Program-made: the position numbers and the translations under genes
NCBI GenBank assembly: GCA_013414795.1
Contig: CP058732.1
Location: 2,581,737 to 2,645,736, forward strand
Direction of reading: 5' to 3'
DNA: 64,000 nt
Origin: Candidatus Kapaibacterium sp.
GTDB taxonomy: Bacteria; Bacteroidota; Ignavibacteria; Kapaibacteriales; UBA2268
Notes under the pieces: generated by a model
Told to the model about the DNA's origin: nothing
The model's database searches: none
Seen by the model: only the letters and a program-made list of their open reading frames with translations
In this document: one piece after another, positions 43,377-54,326 of the stretch
How positions within the stretch are numbered: position 1 is the first letter of the stretch
Layout: every line of letters starts with the position of its first letter

Positions 43377-43538
43377 AAATGTTTTTATTTTGTTAAGTTT
43401 TAAACTTCCATTAATATTTAAACAATTCAAATCCATTTTAGTATAAGCATTTAAAATAACCAGTTAGGGAAAAATAAAAAATATTTTGTATTATAAATGT
43501 TGTTTGCTAATTTTGTCTTTTTATTTATTGGAGTTAAG

Positions 43539-44684
43539 ATGAAACACAATGAAAATTTAACTTGCATATATTGCAAAAGCAGTAAAGTTATCCGACACGG
43601 AAAGACTGCAACTGGGAACAGACGTTATCGCTGTCGTAGTTGTGGTAAGACTTGGGTAATCGAAAAAGCAGAAACAATTAGACCAGATATCGTAAGCCTT
43701 ACAGAAGCATATCTTAGCGGTCGAACATTTCGCGACTTGGTTGAAATCTACAAAAGTTCACCTTTGCGAATAAACAAAAAAGTGCGCGAATTCCTCGAAG
43801 GTTGCCCGAATTGGGAAGAATATTTGGACTTATGCGTTCCAAAGCACAATATACAGTTAGTATATCTTGTCTCTCGAAATTTTGCTGCCGCAACTGTATC
43901 CAATCCTAAACATTCGATGTACGTGGCAATGGCTGTCGATGCTCTCTCGAATGTTGTTTTGGGTTTCGAACTAAATGAAAAAGACGACTTTAACCTTTGG
44001 TATCGACTTCTTGAAAGAATGAGGCGGCGAGGAATTTCCCCCGCCACATTTATGACCAATGGCTCGTTTCACATAGAAGAAGCAGTCAATTCAATTTATC
44101 CCAATTCCACTGTTCGGTTATTCTACCACAGAGCCTACCGCGATAAAGAAATACAATGTTGTCTTGCACGAGCCCCATTAAATGTAAAACTTATCAACGA
44201 CGCAATATATGCCTATGAAGTTTGCAACAATCACAATCTTTCGCGATATTTAAAAATTACCAACGATAAGTTCTTCCACGAGGTTTTGAAAAGTTCCCCA
44301 GATTACTTTTGCAAAAGATTGAAAGAACGGCTCGACAATAAGCCGAAAATACGAATTGAAGGCTTATACAACGCTTTTCAAAGCCGTTTCGAAAAATTCC
44401 ATATGTTGAAAACCGACCCCTTTCCATTGGTTAATGGCTGGATTGCTCGCTGGATGGTGCAACCATTGGATATCGGCTTCTCGCGTCTTTCTATATATAT
44501 GCAACTTCCAGTGGTGACAAATTTCCGACTATTCTCTTGTGGTCAAATTCCCACTTTAAACATTTTTCCGCTCGAAAGTCCCAAATTAACCACCTTCATC
44601 GTCGAAATTGCAGCACGCGCCTTGCAAATTCCTATTTTCTACAATCGCTGTGAAATGAAACTTGATAAATGTAGTTTATTCTGA
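43539..44684 (+). CDS. Transposase-like zinc-ribbon protein, probably inactive or domesticated
   Basis: The 381-residue product opens with an IS1-InsA-type zinc ribbon: CIYCKSSKVIRHG, GKTATGNRRYRCRSCGKTW. A helix-turn-helix-like stretch (LTEAYLSGRTFRDLVEIYKS) is next. The central part resembles a DDE transposase (MYVAMAVDALSNVVLGFEL, LLERMRRRGISPATFMTNG). The second catalytic Asp position reads Asn (MTNGSF) and no clear terminal Glu motif is seen. A GGAG site precedes the ATG at 43539. No inverted repeats or target duplication were found at the flanks. Either a decayed insertion sequence or a DNA-binding protein derived from one. Confidence 0.55.
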   Translation: MKHNENLTCIYCKSSKVIRHGKTATGNRRYRCRSCGKTWVIEKAETIRPDIVSLTEAYLSGRTFRDLVEIYKSSPLRINKKVREFLEGCPNWEEYLDLCVPKHNIQLVYLVSRNFAAATVSNPKHSMYVAMAVDALSNVVLGFELNEKDDFNLWYRLLERMRRRGISPATFMTNGSFHIEEAVNSIYPNSTVRLFYHRAYRDKEIQCCLARAPLNVKLINDAIYAYEVCNNHNLSRYLKITNDKFFHEVLKSSPDYFCKRLKERLDNKPKIRIEGLYNAFQSRFEKFHMLKTDPFPLVNGWIARWMVQPLDIGFSRLSIYMQLPVVTNFRLFSCGQIPTLNIFPLESPKLTTFIVEIAARALQIPIFYNRCEMKLDKCSLF

Positions 44685-46917: not shown

Positions 46918-47397
46918 ATGGCATTGCAAATTGGTTCAAAAGCACCAGATTTCGTCGGAGTAACCGACAGCGAAACTGAAATAAAATTAAGCGATTTTCA
47001 CGGCAAATGGGTCGTCCTTTATTTCTATCCAAAAGACAACACATCGGGTTGCACTCGCGAGGCTTGCGATTTCCGTGACAATTACGAAAGAATTGCCTCC
47101 TTCGGTGCAGAAATCGTTGGTGTTAGCCCCGATTCTGTGAAATCCCACAAGAATTTCAAAGCCAAACACAACTTGAACTTCCATCTTGTTGCCGACCCAG
47201 AAAAGGAAATCTGTAAATTATACGATGTTTTGGGCGAAAAATCAATGTATGGCAAAAAATACCTTGGAGTTATTCGTTCGACATACATTATCGACCCAGA
47301 AGGAACAATTCGTTACGTCAATCCTAAAGTAACTGTCGACGGACATATCGACGAAGTCATCAGTGAATTAAAGAAGTTACAAGGCAAAAATGATTGA
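46918..47397 (+). CDS. bcp: Thiol peroxidase of the Bcp/PrxQ type
   Basis: The 159-residue peroxiredoxin has YFYPKDNTSGCTREACDFRD with peroxidatic Cys45 and resolving Cys50, typical of atypical two-Cys Bcp. GVSPDSVKSHKNFKAKHNL and LVADPEKEICKLYDVLGEKSMYGKKYLGVIRSTYIID follow. It reduces hydrogen peroxide and organic peroxides with thioredoxin. Its stop overlaps the start of the TatD gene by 8 bp, so the two are translationally coupled. Confidence 0.95.
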   Translation: MALQIGSKAPDFVGVTDSETEIKLSDFHGKWVVLYFYPKDNTSGCTREACDFRDNYERIASFGAEIVGVSPDSVKSHKNFKAKHNLNFHLVADPEKEICKLYDVLGEKSMYGKKYLGVIRSTYIIDPEGTIRYVNPKVTVDGHIDEVISELKKLQGKND

Positions 47398-48817
47398 TAC
47401 ACATTGCCACCTCGACTCGAAAGAATTCGAAAATGACCGAGAAGAAGTTATTCGTCGGGCTTTCGAAGGCGGTGTTGTTTCCATCATAGTTCCTTCGATT
47501 GATACCAGCAACCTGGAAAAAGTAGTTAAACTGGCAGAAGAAAACGAAAAGATATTTTCTGGGGTTGGAATCCATCCCCACAATGCAAATGAATACAATA
47601 ATCAAATAGAAGAGAAAATTTGCAAATTGATAGAAGAAAAGAACAAAAAGATAGTTGCAATCGGGGAAATCGGATTGGACTATTATTACGATTTTGCTCC
47701 AAAGGAAAAGCAAAAAGAAGTCTTTCGCCGTCAACTTCAAATTGCAAAGGAATACCAACTTCCAGCAATTATCCACAATAGGGACTCGAACGAGGATTTG
47801 CTCGATATTTTAGAACAAGAGCAAGACGGTTCCCTCCGTTTCGTTTTGCATTGCTTCTCACAAGACCGTGAATTTTTATCCAAGACCCTTGAACTTGGTG
47901 CCTTTGTTTCGTTCACTGGGAATGTTACGTTCAAAAATAACAAGTTCGCTTCCGTTGTCGAAGAAGTCCCCGAAGACAGATTCTTCCTCGAAACAGATTC
48001 CCCATTTATGACGCCAGTACCACATCGAGGGAAAAGGAACGAACCTTCTTTCGTTCGTCTTGTTGCACAAAAAATAGCAGAAATCAAAAATTTACCAATA
48101 AACAAGGTAATTGAAATGACCACCAACAATGCCAAAAAGTTCTTCCAAATTTTATTAATTGCTCTTATTATCATTATGCCTATTGCACTTCGAGCACAAG
48201 AGGAAGAAGAAGCGGATTTCGAAAACCCATACAAAAAATTTATTGGCGTAAGTTCAAACTTTGGGTTCAATACTCTTGTAGTGTTTCAAACTTGGAAAGA
48301 AGATGGTGCTTCGAAGGAAAGGAACTCGGCATACGAGGGCAAGTTTTTCTGGGGGTTCAACCTCAACATATCCCCAGTAGATTTTAACATAAACAGATTA
48401 GAATTCACTTACACGCTCGACCGTCGCTACAACGATACTGCGTATCCCGATTTGGCATATATTTATCGCACTCTTTCGTTTACTTCCCTTTTTCTCATAA
48501 ATCCCTCGATGCGTGTTAACTTCTATGGAGCGTTGGGATTGACTTACATATTTAACAGTTTCAACCTTGGTCATCCTTATCGTGATTTCAAGTCCAGTCT
48601 TGGTGCAAATTTTGGTGCTGGCTTTCTTGTAAATATTCCAATTCAAAATGTCGGTCTTTTCACTATAAACGGGGAATGGTTGATGATTTTCGACCTGTCG
48701 AACTATAAAGACATCTACGACGTTGAGTTGAAACGAAATGTCGACGCATACTACTACTATTCCCAACCAAGACTTATTATCACCTGGTATCCAGAATTTT
48801 TAAATAAACTTCGTTAG
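47390..48817 (+). CDS. TatD-family nuclease fused in frame to an outer-membrane barrel protein
   Basis: Residues 1-252 form a complete TatD metal-dependent DNase: IDTHCHLDSKEFE, GVGIHPH, AIGEIGLDYYYD, IIHNRDSNEDLL, LHCFSQDREF, LETDSPFMTP, ending TTNNAKKFF. Reading then continues without a stop into ILLIALIIIMPIALRAQ and a ~200-residue beta-barrel-like part ending LIITWYPEFLNKLR. The internal Met243 (ATG at 48116), preceded by AAGGT seven bases before it, would start a perfect signal peptide: n-region MTTNNAKKFFQ, hydrophobic core, ALRAQ cleavage site. Probably two products are made from one frame: a cytoplasmic TatD-containing protein and an exported barrel. A single fusion or a lost stop are the alternatives. 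Confidence 0.8.
   Translation: MIDTHCHLDSKEFENDREEVIRRAFEGGVVSIIVPSIDTSNLEKVVKLAEENEKIFSGVGIHPHNANEYNNQIEEKICKLIEEKNKKIVAIGEIGLDYYYDFAPKEKQKEVFRRQLQIAKEYQLPAIIHNRDSNEDLLDILEQEQDGSLRFVLHCFSQDREFLSKTLELGAFVSFTGNVTFKNNKFASVVEEVPEDRFFLETDSPFMTPVPHRGKRNEPSFVRLVAQKIAEIKNLPINKVIEMTTNNAKKFFQILLIALIIIMPIALRAQEEEEADFENPYKKFIGVSSNFGFNTLVVFQTWKEDGASKERNSAYEGKFFWGFNLNISPVDFNINRLEFTYTLDRRYNDTAYPDLAYIYRTLSFTSLFLINPSMRVNFYGALGLTYIFNSFNLGHPYRDFKSSLGANFGAGFLVNIPIQNVGLFTINGEWLMIFDLSNYKDIYDVELKRNVDAYYYYSQPRLIITWYPEFLNKLR
48104..48108 (+). promoter_or_regulatory. Internal ribosome-binding site for the barrel protein
   Basis: AAGGT lies 7 bases before the ATG at 48116 inside the tatD coding region. It would support separate translation of the exported barrel protein from its own start. 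Confidence 0.45.
48116..48817 (+). CDS. Outer-membrane barrel protein from internal start within the tatD fusion
   Basis: A 233-residue precursor starting at the internal ATG would have a textbook signal peptide (KK in the n-region, core ILLIALIIIMPIAL, cleavage after LRA or LRAQ). The mature chain has alternating aromatic strands (KFFWGFNLNISPVDF, FEFTYTL-like LEFTYTLDRR, GANFGAGFLVNIPI) and ends in -LR. No named family is recognised. It shares its first 11 residues with the conserved TatD C-terminus. It lies 2 bp before lnt. Confidence 0.55.
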   Translation: MTTNNAKKFFQILLIALIIIMPIALRAQEEEEADFENPYKKFIGVSSNFGFNTLVVFQTWKEDGASKERNSAYEGKFFWGFNLNISPVDFNINRLEFTYTLDRRYNDTAYPDLAYIYRTLSFTSLFLINPSMRVNFYGALGLTYIFNSFNLGHPYRDFKSSLGANFGAGFLVNIPIQNVGLFTINGEWLMIFDLSNYKDIYDVELKRNVDAYYYYSQPRLIITWYPEFLNKLR

Positions 48818-48819
48818 CA

Positions 48820-50433
48820 TTGCAAAAGAAAAAATTTTTGTTTGGACTTTTGTCTGGTGTACTTCTTGCTCTTTCCTATCCACCTTACCCATTCTATCTT
48901 CTTGCATTTGTGGCTTTTTTACCCATAATTTCAGTTTTCCAAGATGTAAAACGAAAATGGTGGCTGGTTTATCTAACTTTCTTTATTTACCATTACGCTA
49001 CAAATTGGTGGATAAGCAGTTGGCAAAAAGACACCGACCCCTATCTTTTCGTTTCTGGCTTTGCTGTTGCACTTGTCCATCCACTGCTTTTTATGATACC
49101 CTTTGCTTTTTTGAATTTCTTTGCAAGAAAAATTGGCTGGCGAACTTCTGTTGCATTTTTCCCGTTCATATGGATTGCTTTCGAATGGCTCCATAGTCTT
49201 GGCGACCTTGCCTATCCTTGGCTAACTTTGGGATACACACAAACCTATAACCATTATTGGATACAAATTGCAGACCTTGGCGGAGTTTGGCTCGTCTCGT
49301 TCCTTATTGTCACAATTAATATTTTAATTTATTTCGCTATAGAAAAATACAAGGAACTCCACCAAAAGCCAAAATTCTACCTTCTAAAAAACAAATATAC
49401 AGCCATTATTGGCTTAATTCTTGTCATCCCATACATTTATGGTTTTTTCCGAGTTGGGGAATTCCGTTACCAAACTTTGATAGGGCAAAACCAGCACCTT
49501 CGGGTAGGAATTATTCAACCAAACATCAATCCCTGGCGAAAGTGGGAAGCAGACGCAATAACTCAAATCAAAATTCACCAACGAATTCAAGATTCCCTCC
49601 ATCGAGCAGTTCCCGACATCAATCTTTTCGTTTGGAGCGAAACTGCAATTACAATGCTTGACCTCGAAACGAACGCATTCCACAATTTTACTCCCTTCTG
49701 GGATATGCTCGACAGTAACACTGCACTTTTGACTGGCTTTGCCGATTTTCACTTCCTTTCTCCAAGCGAAAAGCCTTCGTTTACTACAAAATATCTTTTC
49801 GGCGATTCAACCAAGCCCTACGAAACCTACAATTCGATGCTTTTGCTCAATCCAGACCGAACTTTTGCAATTTACCACAAGAACCGCCTAACTCCTTTTG
49901 GAGAACATATCCCCTATTCACAAATACTTGGCTTTGCGAAATCCTTCCTTGAATGGAATGTTGGAATTTCAAGTTGGGCGAAAGGGAAAGAACAAAATTT
50001 GCTTTCTTTGAAAACCAGGAACAAACAAAGTTCCATCGGTCCAATAATTTGTATCGAAAGCATTTATCCCGACTATTGCAGACGATTCGTTGCAAAAGGT
50101 GCAGACATACTTGCTATTGTTACAAACGACGGCTGGTACGACCATACTTTCGGTCCTCGTCAACACTACCTCATTGCAACTTTTCGAGCAATCGAAACCC
50201 GACGTTTCATTGTTCGTTGTGCTAACACAGGAGTATCTGGGTTCATTTCACCAACTGGCGAATCCTTGCTCGAAGCACCACAATACACACAAATTGGAAT
50301 CGTAGCCGATGTTCCTACTCTATCCACAAAATCGCTTTACACACATCTTGGAGATTGGTTGCCCTATGTTTCGGTAGGCTTAACTATTGTGTTATTGCTT
50401 TTTGCATTCTTTAAAAAGAATAAACAATTCTGA
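48820..50433 (+). CDS. lnt: Apolipoprotein N-acyltransferase
   Basis: Lnt adds the third acyl chain to the N-terminal Cys of lipoproteins in the inner membrane. The 537-residue product has N-terminal helices (FLFGLLSGVLLALSYPPYPFYLL) and SLGDLAYPWLTLGYTQ. The periplasmic nitrilase domain includes LFVWSETAI, RLTPFGEHIPY and PIICIESIYPD with nucleophile Cys411, then RFIVRCANTGVSG. A TTG start 2 bp after the preceding stop is used, since no ATG lies near the first helix. The window encodes several lipoproteins that would be its substrates. Confidence 0.95.
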   Translation: MQKKKFLFGLLSGVLLALSYPPYPFYLLAFVAFLPIISVFQDVKRKWWLVYLTFFIYHYATNWWISSWQKDTDPYLFVSGFAVALVHPLLFMIPFAFLNFFARKIGWRTSVAFFPFIWIAFEWLHSLGDLAYPWLTLGYTQTYNHYWIQIADLGGVWLVSFLIVTINILIYFAIEKYKELHQKPKFYLLKNKYTAIIGLILVIPYIYGFFRVGEFRYQTLIGQNQHLRVGIIQPNINPWRKWEADAITQIKIHQRIQDSLHRAVPDINLFVWSETAITMLDLETNAFHNFTPFWDMLDSNTALLTGFADFHFLSPSEKPSFTTKYLFGDSTKPYETYNSMLLLNPDRTFAIYHKNRLTPFGEHIPYSQILGFAKSFLEWNVGISSWAKGKEQNLLSLKTRNKQSSIGPIICIESIYPDYCRRFVAKGADILAIVTNDGWYDHTFGPRQHYLIATFRAIETRRFIVRCANTGVSGFISPTGESLLEAPQYTQIGIVADVPTLSTKSLYTHLGDWLPYVSVGLTIVLLLFAFFKKNKQF

Positions 50434-50536: not shown

Positions 50537-51304
50537 CTATACCAGATAATAAACTTCTGGGCTTGTGCTCAGTTCTGGTTTACGACGTATGGAAAACCGC
50601 TCGGAAAGCACTTGGCGAATTTCGGAACCTGGGTCGTCGAGGTCCCCAAAGATTAATGCTTTCGAAGGGCAGGCTTCCACGCAAGCGGGCATCTTGCCTC
50701 GGGCAAGTCTTTCGGCACAGAATGTACATTTTTCTACCACGCCTCGAGTACGAGTTGGAAACTCTGGATTCTGCTTTTTAATAAATGGGCGTGGGTCCCG
50801 CCAATTGAAACTTCGAGAACCATAGGGACAAGCAGCAACACAGTATCGACAACCAATGCATCTATGCCAATCCATCATTACGATACCATCTTCTCGCTTC
50901 CAGGTGGCTTTTGTCGGGCAAACATTTGTGCAAGGCGGATTGCCGCAATGGTTGCACAGCAGAAGAACTGTTTGATGGTTCATCCCTTTGGGTAAAAATG
51001 GATTTTCTTGGGTAACGAAAGCATTGTGAAATTTATCTTTCCATATCCATTTGATTTCGTCCTTGGGATTGTTGAATTCAGGAACATTATGGTATGTGTG
51101 GCAAGCAACGATACACTCCTTGCAATTCGGTGTCTGTTCACATTTTTGTACATCGATAGCCATTGCCCAGCGTTTGGCTCTTAAACCAGTGATTGGGGCT
51201 TGTTGTGGCTCGCTTTGCGAGACCAAATCATAAGTGAATTTGCTTGCCAAAAAAATTCCACCGCCGAAACTGACTATCTTCAAAAAGTTTCTTCTGTCTA
51301 TCAT
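50537..51304 (-). CDS. dsrO: DsrO, periplasmic ferredoxin-like subunit of the Dsr complex
   Basis: The 255-residue iron-sulfur protein has a twin-arginine signal (DRRNFLKIVSFGGGIFL), so it is folded before export to the periplasm. Four Cys-rich blocks are typical of the DmsB/HybA-like fold: CEQTPNCKECIVAC, CNHCGNPPCTNVCP, CIGCRYCVAACP and CTFCAERLARGKMPACVEACP. In DsrMKJOP it exchanges electrons with DsrP and the DsrJ haems. The ATG at 51304 overlaps the dsrJ stop (ATGA) and follows GGGAGG. No dsrP follows; the next gene is the convergent lnt. Confidence 0.92.
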   Translation of the reverse strand: MIDRRNFLKIVSFGGGIFLASKFTYDLVSQSEPQQAPITGLRAKRWAMAIDVQKCEQTPNCKECIVACHTYHNVPEFNNPKDEIKWIWKDKFHNAFVTQENPFLPKGMNHQTVLLLCNHCGNPPCTNVCPTKATWKREDGIVMMDWHRCIGCRYCVAACPYGSRSFNWRDPRPFIKKQNPEFPTRTRGVVEKCTFCAERLARGKMPACVEACPSKALIFGDLDDPGSEIRQVLSERFSIRRKPELSTSPEVYYLV

Positions 51305-51711
51305 TTCAAACCTCCCTTTGGTTGAACGTGACAATCCCAGCAGTATGGTTTAACATCGAGGTAATTATGGCACTGGTCGCAAAATTGTTCCTTGTTGCTA
51401 TGACATTTCAAACAAGCAAGCGTAAGGCTCATTTCCAATTTTTCCCCATTATGCGTAAGAACAGTACCATTTCGAACTATGTAGCGAACATTCATTCGAA
51501 CGACACTATCCCGCCAGAAATTGAGTAAATCCATATGGTAATGGTTCATATAGTCTTTATTTTCGACGCATTGCATTGCATCTTTGGGGTAAACAAGTTG
51601 TGGTTTGACTTTGCTTTGTGCTGATGAAAGATTTAACCAAATTGGCAAAGTGAAGAAACCAACGAAAACAATCAAACCAAGAATAATTTTCCAACCATCG
51701 TACAGTTTCAT
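51301..51711 (-). CDS. dsrJ: DsrJ, triheme cytochrome c subunit
   Basis: The 136-residue protein has one N-terminal membrane helix (WKIILGLIVFVGFFTLPIWL), an uncleaved anchor in known DsrJ. It carries three c-haem sites: CLKCH, CDQCH and CWDCH. The conserved MQCVEN stretch with HYHMDLLNFWRDSVVR holds the Cys that acts as unusual distal haem ligand in characterised DsrJ. It faces the periplasm. The ATG at 51711 follows AGGAGG formed by the last Glu codons of dsrK. Confidence 0.93.
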   Translation of the reverse strand: MKLYDGWKIILGLIVFVGFFTLPIWLNLSSAQSKVKPQLVYPKDAMQCVENKDYMNHYHMDLLNFWRDSVVRMNVRYIVRNGTVLTHNGEKLEMSLTLACLKCHSNKEQFCDQCHNYLDVKPYCWDCHVQPKGGLK

Positions 51712-51712
51712 T

Positions 51713-53320
51713 TTATTCCTCCTCAATATTTAACGGTTGAAGGCGAAGGTCAACTTCTCGGGGCTTCTCCCCAGTCATAACAAGAGCATTGCCAACCATT
51801 TCGTGGACGCCGCCTACTTCGAGCCCAGGCACCCAGAATTCAAACAATGGCGGAAGATTTGCCTTGTCGATAGCACAAATGCACAAGCAAATGTTCACGC
51901 CATACTTATCGCGAACATATTTAGCAGCGTTCGCTCGCGGGAACCCACCACGCATTCGCATCTCGAAGTTCTCGTCTGTACCAATTCCAGCCCCGCTACC
52001 ACAGCAGAAAGTCTGTTCGCGAATCGTATTGTCTGGCATTTCCGTGAATTTTCTCATCACGTTCTTGATAATGTAACGAGGCTCTTCGAGCAAGCCCATA
52101 CCACGCGAAGGATTGCACGAGTCGTGGAAAGTTGCGTGCCAATGGTCGTTTCGTCTGGGGTCTAATTTGATTTTGTTATGATAAATCAAATCAGCGGTAA
52201 ATTCGCAAATGTGCACCATTTTCGTGGATTTCGCATTTTCGAAAACAGTGCCAGTAATCGGCGAGCGTGGTACTTCGAGGAAATCGGCTGGACCATTCAT
52301 TGTATCCATATATTGGTGAATCACTCGCCACATATGTCCACATTCGCCACCAAGAATCCATTTAACTTTCAAACGCTTTGCCTCGGCATATATCTTGTTG
52401 TTCAATCGCTTCATAAGTTCATGGGAAACAAAGGAACCAAAATTGCCACCTTCGGAAGCGTATGTGCTAAATGTATAATCCAGACCAATTTCGTGGAAAA
52501 GCATTATATAGCCCATAAGTGTATAATAGTGTGGGGTGGCGAAATAATCTGCTGATGGCGTAACGAAGAGAATTTCTGCTCCCTTCTTGTTGATTGGAAC
52601 ATCGATGTGTATACCAGTTATCTCTTCAATGTCTGCGGCAGCCATTTCAAGACTATCTTTCATACCGTGGGGCTGGACACCAAGGTGGTTGCCAGTGCGA
52701 TAACAATTTTTGACAGGCGTCATAATCCAATCGATATTCACACCAATCAAATTCATCAGTTCACGGGCAAGAAAAGTTATTTCGGCTGTATCTATACCAT
52801 AGGGACAAAAAACGGAACAGCGTCGACATTGCGTGCATTGGTAGAAATAGTAGAACCATTCGCGAAGCACATCGAAAGTCAAATCGCGGGCTCCAACCAT
52901 TTTGCCCATCAACTTCCCAGCAGTGGTAAATTCTCGTCGGTAAATCGAACGAAGCAGTTCCGCTCGGAGCACTGGCATATTCTTTGGGTCGCCAGAACCA
53001 AGGAAGAAATGGCATTTGTCCGCACAAGCACCACAACGAACACATATATCCATAAATATTTTCAAAGAACGAAACTTTTCCAGCCGCTCGCGAAAGCCTT
53101 CGAGTATGATTTCTTGCCAATTTTCTGGCAATTTCCAATCGGGGTCGGTCGGTTGCCATTTCCTTGGATTTGGCTGGTCAAGATAAATCAATGCTTCTTC
53201 GCTACCAGCATAACTGAATGTCCCTTTACGAAATTCAACTGGAACTTCCATCCAGTTCTTATATTTCGGCTTTAAGTTTATTGTTTGTAGTAACTCTTCT
53301 GGTTTAATTTTTGTAGACAT
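51713..53320 (-). CDS. dsrK: DsrK, HdrD-like catalytic subunit of the Dsr complex
   Basis: The 535-residue cytoplasmic Fe-S protein has two ferredoxin-type motifs (CVRCGACADKCHFF, CTQCRRCSVFCPYG). The CCG-type region (GGECGHMWR, DSCNPSRGMGL, QTFCCGSGAGIG) binds the special [4Fe-4S] cluster of heterodisulfide-reductase-like proteins. DsrK is thought to reduce the DsrC trisulfide, coupling menaquinol oxidation to sulfite reduction. The ATG at 53320 follows AGGAGG made by the final codons of dsrM. Because the N-terminus is preceded by only a short leader, a cytosolic location is expected. Confidence 0.95.
   Translation of the reverse strand: MSTKIKPEELLQTINLKPKYKNWMEVPVEFRKGTFSYAGSEEALIYLDQPNPRKWQPTDPDWKLPENWQEIILEGFRERLEKFRSLKIFMDICVRCGACADKCHFFLGSGDPKNMPVLRAELLRSIYRREFTTAGKLMGKMVGARDLTFDVLREWFYYFYQCTQCRRCSVFCPYGIDTAEITFLARELMNLIGVNIDWIMTPVKNCYRTGNHLGVQPHGMKDSLEMAAADIEEITGIHIDVPINKKGAEILFVTPSADYFATPHYYTLMGYIMLFHEIGLDYTFSTYASEGGNFGSFVSHELMKRLNNKIYAEAKRLKVKWILGGECGHMWRVIHQYMDTMNGPADFLEVPRSPITGTVFENAKSTKMVHICEFTADLIYHNKIKLDPRRNDHWHATFHDSCNPSRGMGLLEEPRYIIKNVMRKFTEMPDNTIREQTFCCGSGAGIGTDENFEMRMRGGFPRANAAKYVRDKYGVNICLCICAIDKANLPPLFEFWVPGLEVGGVHEMVGNALVMTGEKPREVDLRLQPLNIEEE
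51718..51723 (-). promoter_or_regulatory. Ribosome-binding site of dsrJ within the end of dsrK
   Basis: AGGAGG in the three terminal Glu codons of dsrK lies 6 bases before the dsrJ ATG, again with stop plus one base between. Confidence 0.75.
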
Positions 53321-53321
53321 A

Positions 53322-54326
53322 TCATTCCTCCTTTTCAACTGGAATACCTGCTGCAATCATTTTATCGCGGAACTCTTCTTCGTATTCTTCGTAAGTATGC
53401 ACTGGCACATCATAATTCCAAGGATTAACGTGCCTTTTCATTCGGTTGTTGTTGGCAAGGTTCCTCGTCGGACTTAAGAAAATGCCACCAAGATGGACTA
53501 ACTTGCTGAATGGAAAGTAAATTAACAATGTACACACAAAAGTAAAGTGGATTATGAACAATGGGCTCAACTTTGCAAGCAAATCGCTACCAATTGGCTG
53601 AAACGAAAGAATTGAAACAGTGAACTCTTTCACTGCAACCAAATCTGTCTTGAAGAAATATCGCATCAGAACACCAGTTACTGCGATTCCAAGAATCAAA
53701 AGAAGCGGGAAGTAATCCGAGGGCAAGGAGATAATTTTTACTTTGCTATCAAAAATTCGACGAAGGAAAAGATATGTTAACCCAGCAAGAATTAGTACAT
53801 CTGTAATATAAATTATTGGTAAACCAACTTGGAAAAATCCATCGATGTTTTGCAAAAAAGTCACAAAACTTGGTATTGGTTCAGTGAAAAATCGAAAATG
53901 ACGAAGGAAAATAATCAAAAACGACCAGTGGAACGCAAGGCTAAAGAACCAAAGCCATTTGTCCACCGAATAGACAAGTTTTTCGTTATCTTTGAACTCT
54001 GCTTTTGTATTTCGAAAAAGAGAGCGGAAGAACAGAACTTCGAGGAGCATTCTTCCAAAGGCACCAAGGGCACTGCTCGGATTGTCCAATTTGTTCTGGC
54101 GTATCCAAGGAAGCGATTTTTCCTGCCCGCAAGTAGTTGTTATACGAAAAGGAACGGGCGAGCGTCCCCAACGAACGATTCGGGCTATAATTCCAACCAA
54201 AAAGAGCAAAAGGGCAACGTATGGAAGAATTGTCCCAAAAATTGTTTTCATAAATGGTAAATATCCAGCAATCCATCCAAGCCCAAGGATAACAATGAAA
54301 TAAAGTAAAGATAAACCTAATCCCAT
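53322..54326 (-). CDS. dsrM: DsrM, membrane cytochrome b subunit
   Basis: The 334-residue NarI-like protein has about six hydrophobic helices (for example LSLLYFIVILGLGWIAGYLPF and LSPLFIIHFTFVCTLLIYFPF) with haem-ligand-type His residues (FHWSFLIIFLRHFRFF, IHFTF). It anchors DsrK and carries quinol electrons to it. The C-terminal cytoplasmic tail ends in a Glu-rich segment that overlaps the dsrK ribosome site. It is the first dsr gene, 12 bp after the rsbRD-like gene. Confidence 0.93.
   Translation of the reverse strand: MGLGLSLLYFIVILGLGWIAGYLPFMKTIFGTILPYVALLLFLVGIIARIVRWGRSPVPFRITTTCGQEKSLPWIRQNKLDNPSSALGAFGRMLLEVLFFRSLFRNTKAEFKDNEKLVYSVDKWLWFFSLAFHWSFLIIFLRHFRFFTEPIPSFVTFLQNIDGFFQVGLPIIYITDVLILAGLTYLFLRRIFDSKVKIISLPSDYFPLLLILGIAVTGVLMRYFFKTDLVAVKEFTVSILSFQPIGSDLLAKLSPLFIIHFTFVCTLLIYFPFSKLVHLGGIFLSPTRNLANNNRMKRHVNPWNYDVPVHTYEEYEEEFRDKMIAAGIPVEKEE
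53327..53332 (-). promoter_or_regulatory. Ribosome-binding site of dsrK within the end of dsrM
   Basis: AGGAGG lies in the last sense codons of dsrM, 6 bases before the dsrK ATG; the stop codon and one base lie between. dsrK/dsrJ use exactly the same arrangement. Confidence 0.75.

Follow-up and report, generated by a model that had tools for sequence, protein, structure and literature searches.

A tatD gene continuing in frame into a predicted exported barrel: a probable nested gene pair conserved across a bacterial order

In-frame nested genes that arise by internal initiation have been described for lysA/lysA241 of Ms6 (PMC3111421), for SsaQ and other dual-encoding ORFs of Salmonella (PMC11005335) and for HrcQ (PMC8553256). 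In these systems, as in the tatD locus described here, one frame carries two starts, the shorter product is C-terminal and an internal ribosome-binding site is embedded in the coding sequence. Their two products share a function or a localisation pathway, whereas the short product of the tatD locus is predicted to be exported and unrelated to TatD; moreover, it is the overlap itself that would act as signal peptide, and an entire order has conserved the arrangement. This combination of two unrelated proteins and compartments, a signal-peptide overlap and order-wide occurrence was not found in the literature searched, nor were papers on TatD in Kapabacteria, though the coverage was incomplete and novelty is unproven.

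The fbcH gene encodes a cytochrome b/c1 polyprotein, a single precursor in which a signal sequence with a cleavage motif in mid-protein separates two functional proteins. It is the nearest precedent for such a signal sequence between two functional proteins; it differs from the tatD case in that the latter has a conserved internal start as well and that its first part is a soluble nuclease. A further likeness is offered by the TatD-radical SAM proteins (TIGR04038) of other families of the class, where a C-terminal extension also begins straight after the last TatD helix; these differ in having neither signal sequence nor barrel, and an internal ATG in only 2 of 16.

The window, that is, the whole stretch of DNA analysed, comprises 64,000 nucleotides from Candidatus Kapaibacterium sp., and all positions refer to it. 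According to the ORF list and the translation, one frame of 475 amino acids on the plus strand (47390-48817, stop included) encodes in succession a complete TatD, a Sec-type signal sequence and a putative barrel, with no stop at the junction. The preliminary description had claimed that tatD continues in frame into a predicted exported barrel, that TTNNAKKFF runs without a stop into a hydrophobic core and ALRAQ, and that ATG 48116 (Met243), with AAGGT seven bases upstream, opens a short ORF of 233 residues; frame, coordinates and motifs were all found exactly as described. TTNNAKKFF passes straight into QILLIALIIIMPIALRAQ, so that TatD is directly followed by the hydrophobic stretch, then by ALRAQ and finally by 206 residues of barrel character. 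The Shine-Dalgarno-like AAGGT (48104-48108) lies within tatD codons and is separated from ATG 48116 by a 7-base spacer; its duplex energy is -3.9 kcal/mol. The nested ORF (48116-48814, stop 48815-48817) would encode a preprotein of 233 amino acids. Its putative Sec signal peptide (48116-48196), with cleavage predicted after ALRA from motif counts, precedes a mature segment of about 206 residues (48197-48814), predicted to be a small outer-membrane beta-barrel. All these features are on the plus strand, and a search of the genome found one close TatD and one barrel copy, both within this ORF.

Upstream lies a gene for a bcp-like peroxiredoxin of the AhpC/TSA type (46918-47397, plus strand; PF00578, E 6e-43), the last 8 bases of which are also the first of tatD; a bcp-like gene also precedes tatD at loci L251 and L256. 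Downstream, lnt, for apolipoprotein N-acyltransferase (48820-50433, plus strand; TIGR00546, E 1e-87), begins 2 bases past the stop. Beyond it, at 50537-54326 on the minus strand, the translations look, on inspection by eye, like those of a DsrMKJO-type respiratory complex (a CCG-domain Fe-S protein, a cytochrome b-like protein, a multiheme c and a ferredoxin-like Tat protein), a hint of sulfur metabolism. Further upstream, a 395-aa ORF (43497-44684, plus strand) with an N-terminal zinc-ribbon (CIYCKSSKVIRHGK...CRSCGKTW) reads from its letters like an InsA-type transposase protein.

The TatD part (residues 1-253; 47390-48148, plus strand) is that of a full member of its family. It matches PF01026 end to end (residues 2-253, E 1.6e-88) and TIGR00010 (E 1e-87), and its metal-binding and catalytic residues are intact. 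Six such residues are conserved in all aligned members among 127 distinct fusions, and this invariance suggests that TatD has been kept functional. In the AlphaFold model of the window ORF, pLDDT is about 95 up to residue 250 and the high-confidence part ends with a helix at 237-252, in the middle of which Met243 (ATG 48116) is found. On the basis of this model helix, the stretch MTTNNAKKFF (48116-48145, plus strand) is shared, being the end of the last TatD helix and, presumably, the n-region of the signal peptide. Its net charge is about +2 in the fusions and +1 in barrel-less TatDs of the class.

A hydrophobic stretch follows in 127/127 fusions, and a small residue, mostly Ala or Ser, stands before Gln in 122 of them. 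By motif count, n-, h- and c-regions with a small residue at -1 can be recognised, as expected of a substrate of Sec and signal peptidase I; again by motif, the fbcH-type feature of an internal signal sequence with a cleavage motif between two intact proteins is present. The barrel segment resembles the small outer-membrane barrels (OMP_b-brl, PF13505; OmpA/OmpX-like) in its length, its strand pattern, its aromatic C-terminus (last residue F or W in 81/123) and a weak PF13505 match in 10 of 32 relatives (best E 5e-6). It differs from them in that the barrel profile matched no chain in a search of PDB sequences, and in that this profile finds the barrel in the present clade only, bar one weak match outside the class, elsewhere in the phylum (E 2.5e-5, in a 420-aa frame). 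An AlphaFold model of the barrel built from two sequences reached a pLDDT of 36, and the barrel is of low confidence in the model of the long form too.

The join was found to be order-wide. When relatives with a stop-less tatD were sought, as had been proposed, the barrel profile found the barrel in 117/123 genomes and 51/51 genera of the order; in the genomes without a match that were inspected, contig ends cut the locus or the tatD contig was missing. The suggestion that such an arrangement is of a kind rarely noted was thus an understatement. The four congeners (L050-L053) share this uninterrupted join, as do genomes from 10 families of the order. In a sample of the class, the barrel lies in a frame of 410-674 codons in 39/39 barrel genomes, family f13 included besides the order. 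Outside the order, the join is also present in two families of the class, f13 and f19. The f19 version reads TatD-signal-coiled coil-barrel, and its barrel is probably related to that of the order, as judged from a barrel-to-barrel hhalign comparison (probability 88%, E 3e-6). At the f19 loci L097, L098, L113 and L235-L240, a charged coiled-coil segment (KERREAEEIIKKQR...) has been added before the barrel; the ATG is usually at codon -11 from the junction and there is little Shine-Dalgarno (SD) sequence. In other families of the class, TatD either stands alone or forms the known fusion with radical SAM (TIGR04038). In a TatD tree built with the junction columns omitted, all barrel-bearing TatDs fell on one branch (SH-aLRT 88), which suggests a single origin. 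The same branch holds one row labelled as alone (L247); it comes from a fused genome (G099, barrel in a 674-codon frame) and was so labelled because a near-duplicate already served as the fused row.

On every contig of sufficient length to judge, the barrel is in the tatD frame, with the sole exception of one genome of family f7 (G275), in which both genes lie apart. This was also the only genome of the class in which the search for a separate barrel, likewise proposed beforehand, met with success. Its tatD has a stop three codons past FF (FFDVK*) and bcp upstream, while the barrel, on another contig, has its own start and a predicted signal peptide (loci L188, G275:C7, and L251, G275:C189). 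The tatD of this genome has no ATG at -9 or -17, the only one being at -3. Since completeness of the genome reaches only about 70%, it counts as a single supporting case; going by its predicted genes, it shows that the signal-plus-barrel unit is able to stand alone.

The internal start was studied by counting codons from the conserved junction Phe in the 127 distinct fusions, with 73 TatDs without barrel as controls (44 from other phyla, 13 alone in the class and 16 fused to radical SAM). An ATG within codons -18 to -1 is present in 117/127 fusions as against 8/73 controls (5/44, 1/13 and 2/16, respectively), and in 53 of 55 genera. By chance, an 18-codon window in the tatD body has an ATG in a median of 22% of sequences; the only other windows at about 90% lie in one stretch about 36-62 codons upstream, which is read as the conserved Met of an ETD-x-P-x-M motif, at one single position. 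At -9, which corresponds to Met243 of the window, an ATG occurs in 66/127 fusions and 0/73 controls, and the reading of Met243 as an ordinary TatD residue was rejected for that reason. The remaining ATGs are found at -17 (31), -11 (10), -10 (6), -15 (4) and -3 (5). A universal internal Met was rejected too, since the position varies and a few fusions have no start at all. An ATG at a proximal position (-9 to -11) and one at the distal position (-17) are mutually exclusive, both being present in 4 fusions and one of the two in 105 (p 8e-12, kinship ignored). On the tree the ATG position shifts repeatedly; independent pairs point in the expected direction and are too few for a significant sign test. 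Three fusions (L224, L099, L193) have GTG with a good SD in place of ATG. Another three (L079, L156, L187) keep signal and barrel intact without ATG, GTG or TTG at -18 to -1; in these, either the long form or initiation at a rare start codon must supply the barrel.

The SD test gives the strongest evidence for the internal start. The duplex energy before the internal ATG (the best SD being used where a sequence had several ATGs) has a median of -6.3 kcal/mol, compared with -1.5 for 508 in-frame control ATGs of the same tatD genes (p 2e-28); the tatD starts themselves have a median of -0.3 kcal/mol. An SD of -3.5 or better occurs in 45/55 genera; it is weak or absent in families f4, f5, f6, f19 and most of f7. 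In the window it is moderate (-3.9 for the internal ATG, -2.6 for the tatD start and -4.9 kcal/mol for bcp), and -3.5 or better is reached by 41% of first ATGs of long ORFs versus 17% of internal ATGs among the window ORFs. The congeners L050, L052 and L053 keep AAGGT or CAGGT, and L051 has its ATG at -15 with AAAGGG.

Synonymous codon choices spell out the motif, which shifts together with the ATG between lineages. In the group with ATG at -9, Glu at -13 is encoded by GAG and GAA in a ratio of 41:2, the ratio elsewhere in tatD being 304:819 (p 2e-20), and where Lys, Gln or Arg stands at -13 the codon is mostly AAG, CAG or AGG, so the AGGT or AGG core stays. In the group with ATG at -17, the GAG:GAA ratio at -13 is 5:7; there, Glu at -21 is GAG in 20:7 and Ala at -22 is GCG in 16/23, forming GCGGAGAT, compared with 7:47 and 1/50 at these positions in the -9 group. 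Since the synonymous choices track the start codon, protein function offers no explanation for them.

Hence, the locus is very probably a conserved in-frame nested gene pair, with one frame, two start sites and a short preprotein that would be exported as a barrel. A shared frame without a stop between the starts, an internal start beyond chance and a ribosome-binding site, the sequence marks of such a pair, are all found, and the comparative data give the internal start strong support. The in-frame nested pair put forward in the preliminary description gains from the conserved internal ATGs, from the codon-encoded SD moving with them and from the G275 split. Its choice of Met243 holds for the 66 of 127 fusions with an ATG at that position; about half of the fusions have theirs elsewhere. 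It had also set the existence of both products against that of the long form only. The nested pair stands, yet these are not alternatives: without a stop after TatD, each tatD translation event also makes the TatD-signal-barrel long form, free TatD is not a translation product, and having both means long plus short form rather than free TatD plus barrel.

The proposed course is as follows. Ribosomes starting at 47390 would read TatD, the internal Sec signal sequence and the barrel to give the 475-aa long form. Initiation at ATG 48116, aided by the SD inside tatD codons, would give the 233-aa preprotein, the signal peptide of which would be formed by the end of the last TatD helix plus the hydrophobic stretch. 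This preprotein would be exported by Sec, cut at ALRA|Q and inserted as a small barrel in the outer membrane. The short form would supply most of the barrel and the weak tatD start would keep the long form scarce; the ribosome-binding site, stronger at the internal start across the clade, fits an output of little nuclease and much membrane protein. In the long form TatD would probably stay cytoplasmic, while the signal sequence would lodge in the inner membrane. Inserted N-in, it may be cut by signal peptidase to yield membrane-tethered TatD and one more barrel; to judge from the small residue conserved before Gln, either form could be a substrate of this peptidase. Tentatively, and with rather less than even confidence, we propose that both routes run, the internal start making most of the barrel and cut long forms leaving the close TatD only as a C-terminally membrane-anchored nuclease.

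Among the other explanations, it is unlikely that the locus acts as a polyprotein only, translated solely from the tatD start, with the signal N-in/C-out and signal peptidase I yielding anchored TatD and mature barrel. The long form is unavoidable without a stop, the cleavage motif is conserved, and L079, L156 and L187 retain signal and barrel without a usual start codon; this reading, however, leaves unexplained both the ATG enrichment and the synonymous SD codons that track the ATG. Production of the downstream protein by proteolysis only, as in fbcH, is not what most members show, and may hold in those three. A stable, uncleaved fusion of nuclease and barrel, either placing its barrel in the outer membrane or held entire at the inner one, is very improbable: the join is conserved and broken just once, but the two parts are separated by a Sec signal that has a conserved cleavage motif, the nuclease would end up on the periplasmic side or block export, and G275 manages without the link. 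Hardly credible at all is a stop lost by sequencing error or a programmed frameshift freeing TatD, because independent genomes of 51 genera have the barrel with the same open join (an assembly error was rejected on this ground), no conserved slippery heptamer was seen among the junction codons inspected, and the +1-frame stops, which follow the junction somewhat more closely than they do in controls (median 8 vs 15 codons), are opposed by those of the +2 frame (25 vs 10), so that both can be put down to the codon content of the hydrophobic stretch.

On the nested-pair reading, an outer-membrane protein of all 51 sampled genera of an order would be hidden in a gene likely to be annotated as TatD family hydrolase. 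If both routes run, TatD synthesis would be obligatorily coupled to that of one extra outer-membrane protein. An internal ribosome-binding site has here also left an unusually clear record of its history, in which start codon and SD have moved several times with the register kept, and this co-movement offers a way of finding internal sites by sequence alone. It raises the question of how a cytoplasmic nuclease that always emerges from translation with signal sequence and barrel attached can remain useful. As to other TatD-like proteins, short divergent paralogues without most of the usual motifs were seen in families f2 and f9 (L252, L253, L254); all three adjoin a ThiF/E1-like gene, joined at two of the loci (L252 and L253) by a gene like those of FAD-dependent oxidoreductases.
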